A stretch of DNA of 64,000 bases, taken from assembly GCF_003148645.1 (NCBI RefSeq), contig NZ_QGGP01000001.1:62001-126000 (forward strand), written 5' to 3'. The notes under the pieces were generated by a model. The model was given only the letters and a program-made list of their open reading frames with translations. It was not told the DNA's origin and did not search any database. Below are positions 58,983-62,036 of the stretch, piece after piece. Origin of the DNA: Xanthomarina spongicola. Lineage in GTDB: Bacteria > Bacteroidota > Bacteroidia > Flavobacteriales > Flavobacteriaceae. Both the position numbers and the translations under genes were made by a program. Position 1 is the stretch's first letter. Every line of letters begins with the position of its first letter.

Positions 58983-60881
58983 ATGAGCGACGCTTTAAAA
59001 CATGAATGTGGTATTGCACAAATAAGACTTTTAAAACCCTTAGAGTTTTATAAAGAAAAGTATGGTAGTGCTTTTTATGGAGTGAATAAAATGTACTTAA
59101 TGATGGAAAAACAGCACAATCGTGGTCAAGATGGTGCAGGATTTGCAAGCATTAAGTTAGACACCAGCCCAGGAGATCGTTATATAAGTCGTGTACGCTC
59201 TATTGCACAACAACCTATACAAGATATTTTTGCTCAAATAAACGACAGAATTAATAAAGAAATGCTTGAACATCCTGAATATAAAGAGGATGTATCTCTG
59301 CAAAAAAAGCACTTACCATATATTGGGGAAGTTTTACTTGGACATGTTAGATATGGAACTTATGGTAAAAATAGTGTTGAAAACGTACATCCATTTTTAA
59401 GACAAAACAATTGGATGCATAGAAATCTCATTCTAGCAGGAAACTTTAATATGACTAATGTTGATAAGCTGTTTAAAGAGCTTGTTAGAATTGGACAACA
59501 TCCAAAGGAAATGGCAGATACCATAACCATAATGGAAAAAATTGGTCATTTTTTAGATGATGCTGTTGCAAAAAAATACAAACAACTTAAAAAAGAAGGC
59601 TATAGTAAAATTGAATGCTCTCCTTTAATTGCAGAACGACTTAATGTGGCTAAAATATTAAAACGCTCGTCAAAAAACTGGGATGGTGGCTATGCTATGG
59701 CTGGACTTCTTGGTCATGGAGATTCTTTTGTTTTAAGAGATCCAGCAGGAATAAGACCAGTTTATTATTATAAAGATGATGAAGTTGTTGTAGTAGCTTC
59801 AGAAAGGCCAGTAATTCAAACAGTTTTTAATGTCGATTTTGAAGATGTTAAAGAATTAGAACCTGGACATGCTATTATTACTAAAAAATCAGGCAAAGTC
59901 TCTATAGTTAAAATAATAGAGCCATTAGAGAGAAAAGCTTGTTCTTTTGAACGCATTTATTTCTCTAGAGGAAGTGATGCAGAAATCTATCAAGAAAGAA
60001 AAAAACTAGGAAAATTATTAATGCCAAAAGTGTTACAAGCTATTAATAATGACACAAAAAACACCGTATTTTCTTATATTCCAAATACTGCAGAAACATC
60101 TTTTTTTGGAATGATTGAGACTGTTGAAGAACATTTGAACGAGAAAAAAACCCAAGCTATTTTAGATGGTAAAGGAGGCCTTTCAGCAGAAAGAGTTACA
60201 GAAATTTTAAGCGAAAGACCTCGTATTGAAAAAATTGCCATTAAAGATGTTAAATTAAGAACATTTATTACAGAGGATAGTAGCAGAAACGACTTAGTAG
60301 CACATGTTTATGATGTTACCTATGGAGTTATAAAACCTACTGATAACCTTGTTATTATAGACGATAGTATTGTTAGAGGTACGACTCTAAAAATGAGTAT
60401 TATTAAAATGATGGACAGATTAAACCCAAAAAAGATTATTGTTGTTTCTTCTGCTCCTCAAATTCGCTATCCAGATTGTTATGGAATTGATATGGCACGA
60501 TTGGAAGATTTAATAGCTTTTAGAGCTATGTTAGAATTACTAAAAGAAAATAATAAGTATCATTTAGTCGAGGAGGTTTATAAAAAATGTAAAGCTCAAG
60601 TAGATTTAGATGATAAAGATGTTAGAAACTTTGTAAAAGACCTTTATTCTGAATTTTCGGCCGATACCATTTCAAATAAAATAGCTGAATTAATTTGCGA
60701 TAATACCATAAAATCTAAAGTAGAGACCATTTTTCAACCAATTGAAAGTTTACATAAGGCATGTCCTAAAAACTTAGGCGATTGGTATTTTACTGGCAAC
60801 TATCCAACTGTTGGAGGGAATAGAGTTGTAAACAAAGCTTTTATTAATTTTTATGAAGGAAATAAAGAAAGAGCTTACTAG
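58983..60881 (+). CDS. purF: Amidophosphoribosyltransferase (long PurF-type)
   Basis: A 632-residue enzyme of the PurF type, which makes phosphoribosylamine from PRPP and glutamine, step 1 of purine synthesis. Cys9 (HECGIAQIRL) is the glutaminase nucleophile after an 8-residue leader, with HNRGQDGAGFASI and GHVRYGTYG following. The PRPP site is VIIDDSIVRGTTLKMS. It is over 100 residues longer than E. coli PurF, with inserted or extended parts around 60-105 and a C-terminal extension. Bacteroidota often carry this long form beside or in place of the short one, so a related but different role cannot be excluded. Its own promoter is not clear. Confidence 0.88.
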   Translation: MSDALKHECGIAQIRLLKPLEFYKEKYGSAFYGVNKMYLMMEKQHNRGQDGAGFASIKLDTSPGDRYISRVRSIAQQPIQDIFAQINDRINKEMLEHPEYKEDVSLQKKHLPYIGEVLLGHVRYGTYGKNSVENVHPFLRQNNWMHRNLILAGNFNMTNVDKLFKELVRIGQHPKEMADTITIMEKIGHFLDDAVAKKYKQLKKEGYSKIECSPLIAERLNVAKILKRSSKNWDGGYAMAGLLGHGDSFVLRDPAGIRPVYYYKDDEVVVVASERPVIQTVFNVDFEDVKELEPGHAIITKKSGKVSIVKIIEPLERKACSFERIYFSRGSDAEIYQERKKLGKLLMPKVLQAINNDTKNTVFSYIPNTAETSFFGMIETVEEHLNEKKTQAILDGKGGLSAERVTEILSERPRIEKIAIKDVKLRTFITEDSSRNDLVAHVYDVTYGVIKPTDNLVIIDDSIVRGTTLKMSIIKMMDRLNPKKIIVVSSAPQIRYPDCYGIDMARLEDLIAFRAMLELLKENNKYHLVEEVYKKCKAQVDLDDKDVRNFVKDLYSEFSADTISNKIAELICDNTIKSKVETIFQPIESLHKACPKNLGDWYFTGNYPTVGGNRVVNKAFINFYEGNKERAY

Positions 60882-60982
60882 ATAAGCTATTAATAATTAA
60901 CGCTTTGTCTAAGAAATAAGTGCTTTTATCTAAAATATTTGCATTTCAACTGATATATGCAAAAGTTTAAATAAAATAAAAC

Positions 60983-61067
60983 TACTTTAGATTCACCATA
61001 ACATAAGTAGGTTAAGTTCATGGTAGATTTGGGGCAAAAAAAGGTGAACTATCGTTCGCCTTTTTTT
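60983..61067 (+). ncRNA. Candidate small RNA, tandem copy 1
   Basis: A unit with its own -7 box (TACTTTAG, 60983-60990, one mismatch to TAnnTTTG), a transcript body from about 60994 and a terminator. The body folds as ACCAT..ATGGT (60995-60999 with 61017-61025 region, plus inner AAC/GTT), a linker with GATTTGGGGC and an A-run, then GGTGAAC-TATC-GTTCGCC and T (61043-61067). An almost identical copy lies at 61189-61271. ATG-led reading of the body is not kept between copies because of a one-base indel, so it is not a peptide gene. Confidence 0.65.
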
Positions 61068-61188
61068 ATTTTACATCTAAATTTCATTTTTTATTCTAAG
61101 TTTTCATCTAATTCTTTCTTAATTACTCTTTTAGACTAATTTATAAGTAGTTTATCTAATAATTTTCTCAATTCTAAGATAACAACCA

Positions 61189-61271
61189 TATATTTGATGC
61201 ACCATAACATAAGTAGGTTAAGTTTATGGTAGATTTGGGGCAAAAAAGGTGAACTCTCGTTCACCTTTTTT
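61189..61271 (+). ncRNA. Candidate small RNA, tandem copy 2
   Basis: The second copy starts with a perfect -7 box (TATATTTG, 61189-61196), body from about 61200. It matches copy 1 over some 80 bases with five differences. The C/T change sits at the bulge of the first stem, one A is lost from the linker, one change is in the terminator loop, and G to A turns a G-U pair into A-U in the terminator stem (GGTGAAC with GTTCACC). The last difference lies after the T-run. The changes keep the fold, which argues for function at the RNA level. Confidence 0.65.
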
Positions 61272-61383: not shown

Positions 61384-61992
61384 CTATTTAGCTTCAGCAT
61401 AGCGTCTTTCAACTTCATTCCAGTTAATTACATTAAAAAATGCATTGATATAATCTGGTCTTCTATTTTGGTAATTTAAATAGTAAGCGTGTTCCCATAC
61501 ATCTAATCCTAAAATTGGAGTACCTCCACAAGTAACTCCTGGCATTAATGGATTATCTTGATTTGGTGTAGAACAAACTTCAACTTTTCCTCCTTTATGT
61601 ACACATAACCATGCCCAACCTGATCCAAATTGAGTTGCAGCTGCTTTACTAAATACATCTTTAAAAGCATCAACAGATCCATAGGCAGTTATAATTGCCT
61701 CTTTTAATTCTCCAGACAAATAACCTTTCCCTTCTGGATTCATAACGTCCCAAAATAAAGAATGATTATAAAAACCTCCACCATTATTTCTAACAGCTTT
61801 ATTATTCATATCTAGATTAGTAAGAATATTTTCTATTGTTTTTCCTTCTAAATCTGTTCCTGCAATTGCATTATTTAAATTATTTGTATAGCCTTGATGA
61901 TGTTTAGAATGGTGTATTTCCATTGTACGTGCATCAATATTTGGTTCTAGAGCATCATATGCATATTTTAATTTCGGTAATTCGAAAGCCAT
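61384..61992 (-). CDS. sodA: Superoxide dismutase, Mn-type
   Basis: A 202-residue Fe/Mn-family dismutase. Metal ligands are the His in [12 protein letters not shown] (His27), the His in YNHSLFWD, and Asp and His in DVWEHAYYL. The second-shell Gln in NQDNPLMPG and Gly in NGGGFYNHS favour the Mn form or a cambialistic enzyme. The start at 61992 ([10 protein letters not shown]) is chosen; an ATG at 62031 lies in a -7 box. No signal peptide, so cytoplasmic. Confidence 0.95.
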
Positions 61993-62028
61993 AATCTTAT
62001 GTTTTTTAGTGTTAATATTTAATTCTTT

Positions 62029-62036
62029 CAAATTTA
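62029..62036 (-). promoter_or_regulatory. -7 box (TAAATTTG) for sodA
   Basis: The minus strand reads TAAATTTG, a full TAnnTTTG match, 37-44 bases before the ATG at 61992. The longer ORF start at 62031 falls inside it. Confidence 0.55.

Follow-up and report, generated by a model that had tools for sequence, protein, structure and literature searches.

Multicopy small RNAs (sRNAs) have been described in Bacteroides, where PMC11697453 presents FopS (RF04319) as sRNAs of ~65-70 nt that have their own sigma promoters and a terminator hairpin, pair at the translation starts of mRNAs and target SusC transporters. The same paper names LhrC and Qrr, sibling sRNAs of which several near-identical copies act on common targets (PMC11697453). 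For the Flavobacteriaceae, a single dedicated transcriptome study of small RNAs was found (PMC9723704), which describes Rfp18, a structured sRNA conserved in Flavobacterium that affects metalloprotease mRNAs. With only this one dedicated study found, RNA regulation in the family looks little explored. Another point of comparison is offered by type I toxin-antitoxin systems, in which the toxin is a small, usually hydrophobic peptide; OhsC-ShoB and IstR-TisB are pairs of this type with separate RNA genes. Here, we describe tandem RNA units of Xanthomarina spongicola that are probably a multicopy trans-acting antisense sRNA blocking the translation of a co-regulated small protein, on the basis of in silico observations of sequence, structure, covariation, family distribution, complementarity, the coding signature of an open reading frame (ORF), a common operator and co-occurrence.

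The window analyzed is a stretch of 64,000 nucleotides, positions 62001-126000 of contig C1 of a genome of 3.16 Mb in 29 contigs. It contains two units of ~72 nt on the + strand, copy 1 at 60995-61067 and copy 2 at 61201-61271, sited between the conserved upstream neighbour purF (58983-60881, + strand) and the conserved convergent neighbour sod (Fe/Mn superoxide dismutase; 61384-62031, − strand, likely start codon at 61989). Gene names in this work, purF and sod included, were assigned by recognizing the proteins, except where we cite a family search. A sequence-only reading of this DNA had described two copies of about 80 bases lying 206 bases apart, and a direct repeat with 206-nt spacing was indeed found in the window. 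Sequence and promoter profile agree with its claim of a -7 box copied at the same offset, as TACTTTAG is found at 60983-60990 and TATATTTG at 61189-61196. The start of copy 1 is inferred from its -7 box and its end is the T-run; copy 2 is supported by the direct repeat, folding and the covariance model. The duplication reaches upstream to 60915/61121 at 71% identity, and this part holds one operator-like direct repeat per unit: TTTTATC / TTTCAAC at 60924-60956 for copy 1 (C1:122924-122956; pattern with one mismatch) and TTTTAGAC / TTTATC at 61129-61161 for copy 2 (from the sequence), both on the + strand with their C's 20 bp apart.

In a search of the X. spongicola genome, copy 2 matched copy 1 at 93% identity (E 6.8e-30), and the two units were the only matches at E <= 0.001. 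Since the genome holds two copies only, the units are not a dispersed mobile repeat there, and this possibility, which the earlier reading had named as one of three findings that would speak against its proposal, is ruled out for this genome. Some other genomes carry extra RNA copies that adjoin other genes, outside the purF-sod interval. A coding unit was rejected as well because frames differ between the copies: when read from the ATG in the stem, copy 1 and copy 2 reach their stop codons at different places, and, as had been claimed, no frame is common to both.

Folding of both copies gave an ACCAU..AUGGU hairpin, an unpaired GAUUUGGGGC linker (also written GATTTGGGGC / AGAUUUGGGGC across both units) and a terminator, which is the ACCAT..ATGGT stem, linker and terminator hairpin that had been proposed. 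The folding z-scores were -4.33 for copy 1 and -4.45 for copy 2, and 0/200 shuffles were as low. In copy 1, the 5' hairpin, ACCAUAAC-A-UAA[GUAGG]UUA-A-GUU-C-AUGGU, occupies 60995-61024 (folding, profile and covariation) and is followed by the unpaired linker AGATTTGGGGC at 61025-61035, which is the main pairing segment in the duplex computations described below, and by the intrinsic terminator at 61036-61067 (folding and covariation); the terminator of copy 2, defined by folding, lies at 61242-61271. All of these are on the + strand. The loop of the copy 1 hairpin is nearly invariant across the RNA family, and, according to computed pairing, the hairpin may also pair with the peptide mRNA. The differences between the copies that the sequence-only reading had listed (at a bulge, in linker length, in a loop, as a G-U to A-U change in the terminator stem and beyond the T-run) are all present in the sequence.

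Blastn of copy 1 detected the unit in 243 of 299 genomes sampled from its GTDB family, at 1-5 matches per genome, although four of the 243 (G015, G131, G204 and G238) had weak matches only (best E 1e-4 to 9e-4), which could be other matches. A covariance model, R1, was built from 35 non-redundant units and run against 395 genomes from the phylum under the stricter filters used for large sets. It reached at least 70 bits in 33 of the 41 Flavobacteriaceae genomes listed and had no strong match in the 354 sampled genomes outside this family, nine of which gave a match at E <= 0.01 (best 31.6 bits). Tandem arrays contain up to six copies. When loci were fetched via the sod protein, a pattern scan found at least one unit in 47 of 80, in every case (47/47) downstream of sod and on the opposite strand; in the other 33, the pattern found no unit and model matches did not exceed 23 bits. 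Among the 59 unit loci listed, that of X. spongicola included, purF lies upstream on the same strand.

The covarying homologues that the sequence-only reading had asked for do exist. The model-fitted alignment of 126 distinct sequences had standard pairs in 98.2% of pair cells, with 11 of the 22 pairs changing on both sides (0/500 shuffles as high), and sliding the pairing partners by 1-3 columns lowered the standard pairs to 59% or less. A MAFFT alignment of 35 sequences (A1) gave 86.9% standard pairs and 12 pairs changing on both sides. Covariation is strong for the terminator and thin for the 5' hairpin. In the model-fitted alignment, three pairs of the hairpin each show a single double change, and one of its pairs is unpaired in 41/126 sequences; in A1, five pairs of this hairpin show a double change, each in one sequence. 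Together with the aligned -7 boxes and the separate terminators, these covarying helices support the proposal of a structured, independently promoted tandem small RNA. The A1 columns GTAGGTT and ATTTGGG are identical in 35/35 sequences, and GTAGGTTAAG is 97-100% identical per position among 170 distinct units, conservation figures that are inflated because the units were collected by a pattern allowing two mismatches in GTAGGTTAAGTT and one in GATTTGGG.

Two features of the arrays should be mentioned here. A paralogue class with the linker GATTTGGGACG and its own promoter type was seen in L030, L039, L041, L045, L046, L048, L049 and L061, where it is the unit nearest sod, and functional divergence among tandem copies is possible. 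Separately, a repeated CAAAT.....GGGGTGGYG-like element stands soon after the unit terminator in L027, L038, L097 and L099.

The sequence-only reading could assign no known RNA family, and a search of the whole window against Rfam at the gathering score, Flavo-1 included, returned no matches either. Permissive Rfam hits look terminator-driven, and several fall on both strands. The units are like FopS, as PMC11697453 describes it, in that both are multicopy Bacteroidota sRNAs with their own promoters, a terminator hairpin and pairing (here predicted) at translation starts. Several paralogues per genome with their own promoters are found here as in FopS, and both contain the letters UUCAUGGU..AGAUUU. 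Membership in FopS is nevertheless ruled out by score, partner and 5' structure. The FopS model scored copy 1 at 20.3 and 20.7 bits against a gathering score of 56. For the RRM-1 partner RbpB, no PF00076 match was found in the X. spongicola genome at E <= 0.01, whereas a control Bacteroides genome does match. Only the terminator hairpin is paired in the FopS model, and the 5' seed is single-stranded; the 5' end of the unit, in contrast, folds into a hairpin, with the thin covariation given above. The units were also absent from the matches of a FopS search of the X. spongicola genome, which says little because 150 of 948 candidates were scored. According to PMC11697453, FopS targets SusC transporters, whereas the predicted target of the unit is the mRNA of a small peptide.

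The unit could otherwise be a flavobacterial member of the F. psychrophilum Rfp set, possibly Rfp18 of strain THC0290 itself, given that Rfp18 is likewise structured and conserved in its genus (PMC9723704) and that some units lie in loci named as Flavobacterium (e.g., L034 and L036). However, Rfp18 is described as pairing through a third stem-loop (PMC9723704), whereas the unit has two, a comparison made by description alone, and we judge this identity to be quite improbable. The presence of several near-identical sRNA copies is also reminiscent of LhrC and Qrr as portrayed in PMC11697453. These are found in phyla other than that of the unit. To our knowledge, they have neither a purF-tied tandem array nor one dedicated peptide target.

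A profile anchored on the RNA core alone identified a TAnnTTTG box at a fixed distance from the RNA start. Upstream of it, 99 non-redundant promoters (of 228) had a self-similarity of 0.43 at a lag of 20 bp, against 0.27-0.34 at the other lags from 8 to 31, and the operator motif reads TTYAWCnAWWWW, then TTYAWCtAAAA 20 bp on. In 81 of these 99 sRNA promoters, on which the operator weights were themselves trained, the best fit to this operator is found 60-61 nt upstream of the -7 box. Paralogues of the GGGACG type showed no good operator match by eye among those listed. It should be noted that the extra RNA copies of L164, L166 and L167, outside purF-sod, have a different common promoter (ACTTATTTATGTTTG), so that not all copies seem to be under the common operator.

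The complement of the linker (CCCCAAATC) occurs at 13 places in the X. spongicola genome, as opposed to four for the reversed control, and two of the 13 are the units themselves. One such site, L152 at C1:382700, lies between scoB and a convergent ABC-transporter gene; several complementary sites stand there in a row, and of the four 60-nt windows computed, three have duplex energies of -34 to -42 kcal/mol and the fourth has -19. At this place, between scoAB and the ABC-transporter gene, is an unannotated ORF of 42 aa. Other genera have matches to parts of the L152 region; at E <= 0.01 these appeared in 48 of 100 genomes, and many were short or weak. A 12-locus alignment revealed an ORF that spans 40-42 codons, varies in length in steps of three bases and precedes a terminator-like hairpin; in L174, ORF calling with a minimum of 35 codons found none. 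In 29 loci, the middle part of the ORF, which lies outside most of the pairing site and terminator, had an N/S of 1.06 for one-base codon differences, compared with 3.82 expected without selection, although these counts are not independent because all sequence pairs were counted. Judged by this sequence signature, the 42-aa ORF is coding. The conserved ORF, the indels in threes and the coding constraint also rule out that L152 consists of degenerate sRNA copies seen through reverse-strand similarity.

The genomic setting of this peptide gene is conserved: scoB (mostly with scoA) and the ABC gene lie on either side of the ORF in 24 of 30 loci, and the remaining six have the ABC gene alone (five) or scoAB alone (one). 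Three of the peptides were compared with Pfam and NCBIfam, and none had a match. A first profile (A3), made from 11 peptides whose seeds had been found through complementarity, detected the peptide in 115 of the 299 genomes, as a single match except in two of them, with some matches covering the C-terminal half alone; 114 of these 115 genomes also carry the RNA.

Pairing between the RNA and this gene was computed for 30 loci picked by peptide profile, eight of them from profile seed genomes, with one standard RNA core and 60-nt windows on both strands of ~3.1 kb. In 28 of the 29 loci scored, the start-codon region of the sense strand gave the best-pairing window, at -34 to -52 kcal/mol; L200 was left unscored, and the single miss, L208, had a false ORF end picked. 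The target region of X. spongicola gave -44.0 kcal/mol with copy 1 and -40.9 with copy 2, while 200 shuffles had means of -19.8 / -19.9 and lowest values of -34.7 / -26.0 kcal/mol (copies 1 / 2; slightly coarser window step). One pairing site sets CAUAAG of the RNA on a CUUAUG that holds the start codon, and part of the pairing site falls within ORF codons. These energies ignore accessibility, with the exception of one dimer calculation, which yielded -74.6 vs -44.4 for the two RNAs folded apart. At the level of sequence, the units have the promoter, terminator, conserved segments and conserved complementary mRNA that define a trans-acting base-pairing sRNA.

These data bear on another explanation, namely that the RNA sequesters an RNA-binding protein and that the complementarity is incidental or derives from an inverted duplication. 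Protein-titrating RNAs are multicopy, with a conserved loop and unpaired segment, and the units can be likened to them in their multiple copies and their strongly conserved loop and linker. Incidental matching, however, does not explain a complementary site that ranks first in 28/29 loci, and no protein of the RRM_1 class, the sole class searched, was found in the X. spongicola genome. We therefore hold protein binding to be most improbable and retain an antisense sRNA acting on the peptide mRNA as the better account.

The operator connects the two loci. With the weights trained on the sRNA promoters, both strands of each peptide locus were scanned (about 6,180 positions per locus, L208 left unscored), and the site upstream of the peptide ORF ranked first in 29/29 loci scored. 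By reading, some 10 bp fewer separate this site from the -7 box than separate the two elements at the RNA genes. As the same operator is found at the array and at the peptide gene, one regulator would drive both. That this regulator may be of the LytTR or AraC type is no more than a guess from the spacing of the direct repeat. The operator pattern, with one mismatch allowed, had nine matches in ten genomes against two for a control pattern, and no match in four of the ten; four of the nine matches are RNA or peptide genes already known, and none of the other five lies in front of a convincing regulator gene. Of note, an operator-like direct repeat and a TATATTTA box precede an ORF of 43-49 aa with a hydrophobic stretch elsewhere in the X. 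spongicola genome (L220, C1:572608), which may be a second member of the regulon.

The genomes without a first-profile hit revealed a second clade of peptides. Short ORFs with an LTKKLFML-like C-terminal end were found downstream of scoB in L252, L253, L254, L262 and L265, and shorter ones in L255, L258 and L263 (two of them by eye); in L261, the operator and pairing site come beyond the downstream end of the stretch inspected. No such ORF was seen downstream of scoB in L257, L266 and L267, from three genomes of genus g127, which is probably Flavobacterium. These genomes do carry the RNA, and RNA-bearing genomes in which no peptide gene is visible suggest that it has additional partners. A second profile (A4) matched in 48 of 299 genomes, all 48 of which have the RNA. 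When both profiles are combined, the RNA occurs in 160 of 161 genomes with the ORF and in 83 of the 138 remaining genomes (Fisher p 9e-21, without phylogenetic correction). The exception, G293, is a 76%-complete genome with a weak ORF match and no RNA. In the RNA-less genomes G010, G033 and G174, the best pairing windows and operator scores were low and located elsewhere. The second clade pairs less clearly, as the start region was the best window in 14/30 loci (one core sequence being used for all) and the operator ranked first in 10/30. A complement search in ten genomes of the second-clade and miss groups returned the RNA genes themselves and scattered matches, and several of the ten were hardly above the reversed control.

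A long, near-complete antisense pairing over the start codon of a small-protein mRNA, here known from computed pairing only, is also what a type I toxin-antitoxin system would have, and the array might be a chromosomal antitoxin RNA acting in trans from several copies. The length of the peptide (about 26-47 aa across types, the shortest read by eye), its single match per genome in nearly all genomes and the RNA in 160/161 peptide genomes would fit such a system, as would the C-terminal segment of the X. spongicola peptide, which is amphipathic and basic (moment 0.70, reached by 0.1% of shuffles). This same segment is, however, not hydrophobic on average (mean hydrophobicity -0.21), and the amphipathicity of the A4-type peptide is nothing unusual, with 55% of shuffles reaching it. 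The RNA (C1:122990-123280) neither overlaps nor adjoins its target (C1:382700), and both loci have a stable synteny, which is unusual for toxin-antitoxin modules. The likeness to OhsC-ShoB and IstR-TisB is that a small RNA forms a long antisense duplex, here a predicted one, with an mRNA encoding a very small protein; the unit differs from these pairs in its several tandem copies at a distant fixed locus, in sharing an operator with its target and in a peptide that is not clearly a membrane toxin. Taken as a toxin-antitoxin pair proper, the system is unlikely to be correctly described, and translational repression by an antisense sRNA, whatever the role of the peptide, is preferred.

The remaining alternative is a global trans-acting sRNA with many mRNA targets, among which the peptide mRNA would be one target or a dedicated sponge titrating the RNA. 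It draws on the strong model scores for the RNA in genomes in which no peptide gene was seen, on the several complementary sites in a row in the X. spongicola peptide mRNA and on the excess of CCCCAAATC over its reversed control (13 vs 4), with sites that include the nrdB 5' UTR and a secreted-protein gene. The nrdB pairing is much weaker, at about -20 to -22 kcal/mol, whereas the site at the secreted-protein gene equals that of the peptide gene in strength. A locus that looks like an ORF-less decoy (L212) would suit a global sRNA with a sponge, but the ORF of the peptide gene is under coding constraint, which means that the peptide mRNA is not only a sponge. A global sRNA is thus possible, though on the doubtful side, and the antisense repressor with the peptide mRNA as its main predicted target is still favoured over it.

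The sites in question are as follows. The nrdB 5' UTR has a 10-nt perfect linker complement 52 nt before the ATG (L153, C1:556847). In L160 (C6 near 128105), GCCCCAAATCTATCATAAATTCAAC comes immediately after the stop codon of a gene for a predicted secreted protein, close to the end of hisS, with -39.7 and -43.3 kcal/mol for the two RNA cores; by its sequence, it is a candidate second target or relic. Two CTGCCCCAAATC..ACCATAACT.ACCTGCGC-like elements complementary to the RNA are found at positions 1500 and about 2140 of L228 (G018:C2:601901), one window of which gave -43.8 kcal/mol. Finally, L212 (G154:C1:265461) has an operator and -7 box resembling those of the peptide gene, then CCCTAAATCTACAATAAA and a terminator, with no ORF seen, and is possibly a decoy RNA, that is, an ORF-less copy of the target.

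The transcription, repression, regulator and peptide function that we infer would combine into the following mechanism. Each ~72-nt RNA would be made from its own promoter, in most cases behind the common direct-repeat operator, and would present the conserved GUAGGUUAAG loop and the GAUUUGGGGC linker. It would form a duplex of roughly 25-40 nt that takes in the 5' UTR, the start codon and the initial codons of the small mRNA, so that the AUG would be covered and ribosomes blocked, and the duplex would probably be exposed to RNase III. One regulator acting through the same operator would drive both the RNA array and its target, so that repressor and target would be co-regulated, in the manner of an incoherent feed-forward loop or a two-locus type I toxin-antitoxin pair. 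More tentatively, and with somewhat less than even confidence, we propose a family-wide two-locus RNA-peptide module under one operator and regulator, predicted from sequence to consist of 1-6 sRNA copies by purF and one unannotated peptide gene by scoAB, which would work as a toxin-antitoxin-like or pulse-generating switch and possibly include a decoy in at least one genome.

In the literature searched, which did not extend to subscription journals and supplements, we found no description of this RNA or peptide. The analysis yields a family-wide sRNA that has no Rfam match at the gathering score, together with its predicted main target, and a peptide family that has no Pfam or NCBIfam match, together with the common operator. 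With the sRNA, the predicted target, the peptide family and the operator in hand, the hypothesis is directly testable in a genetically tractable member of the family. If it is true, a peptide gene and its multicopy antisense repressor would be kept at two distant, fixed loci across a bacterial family.
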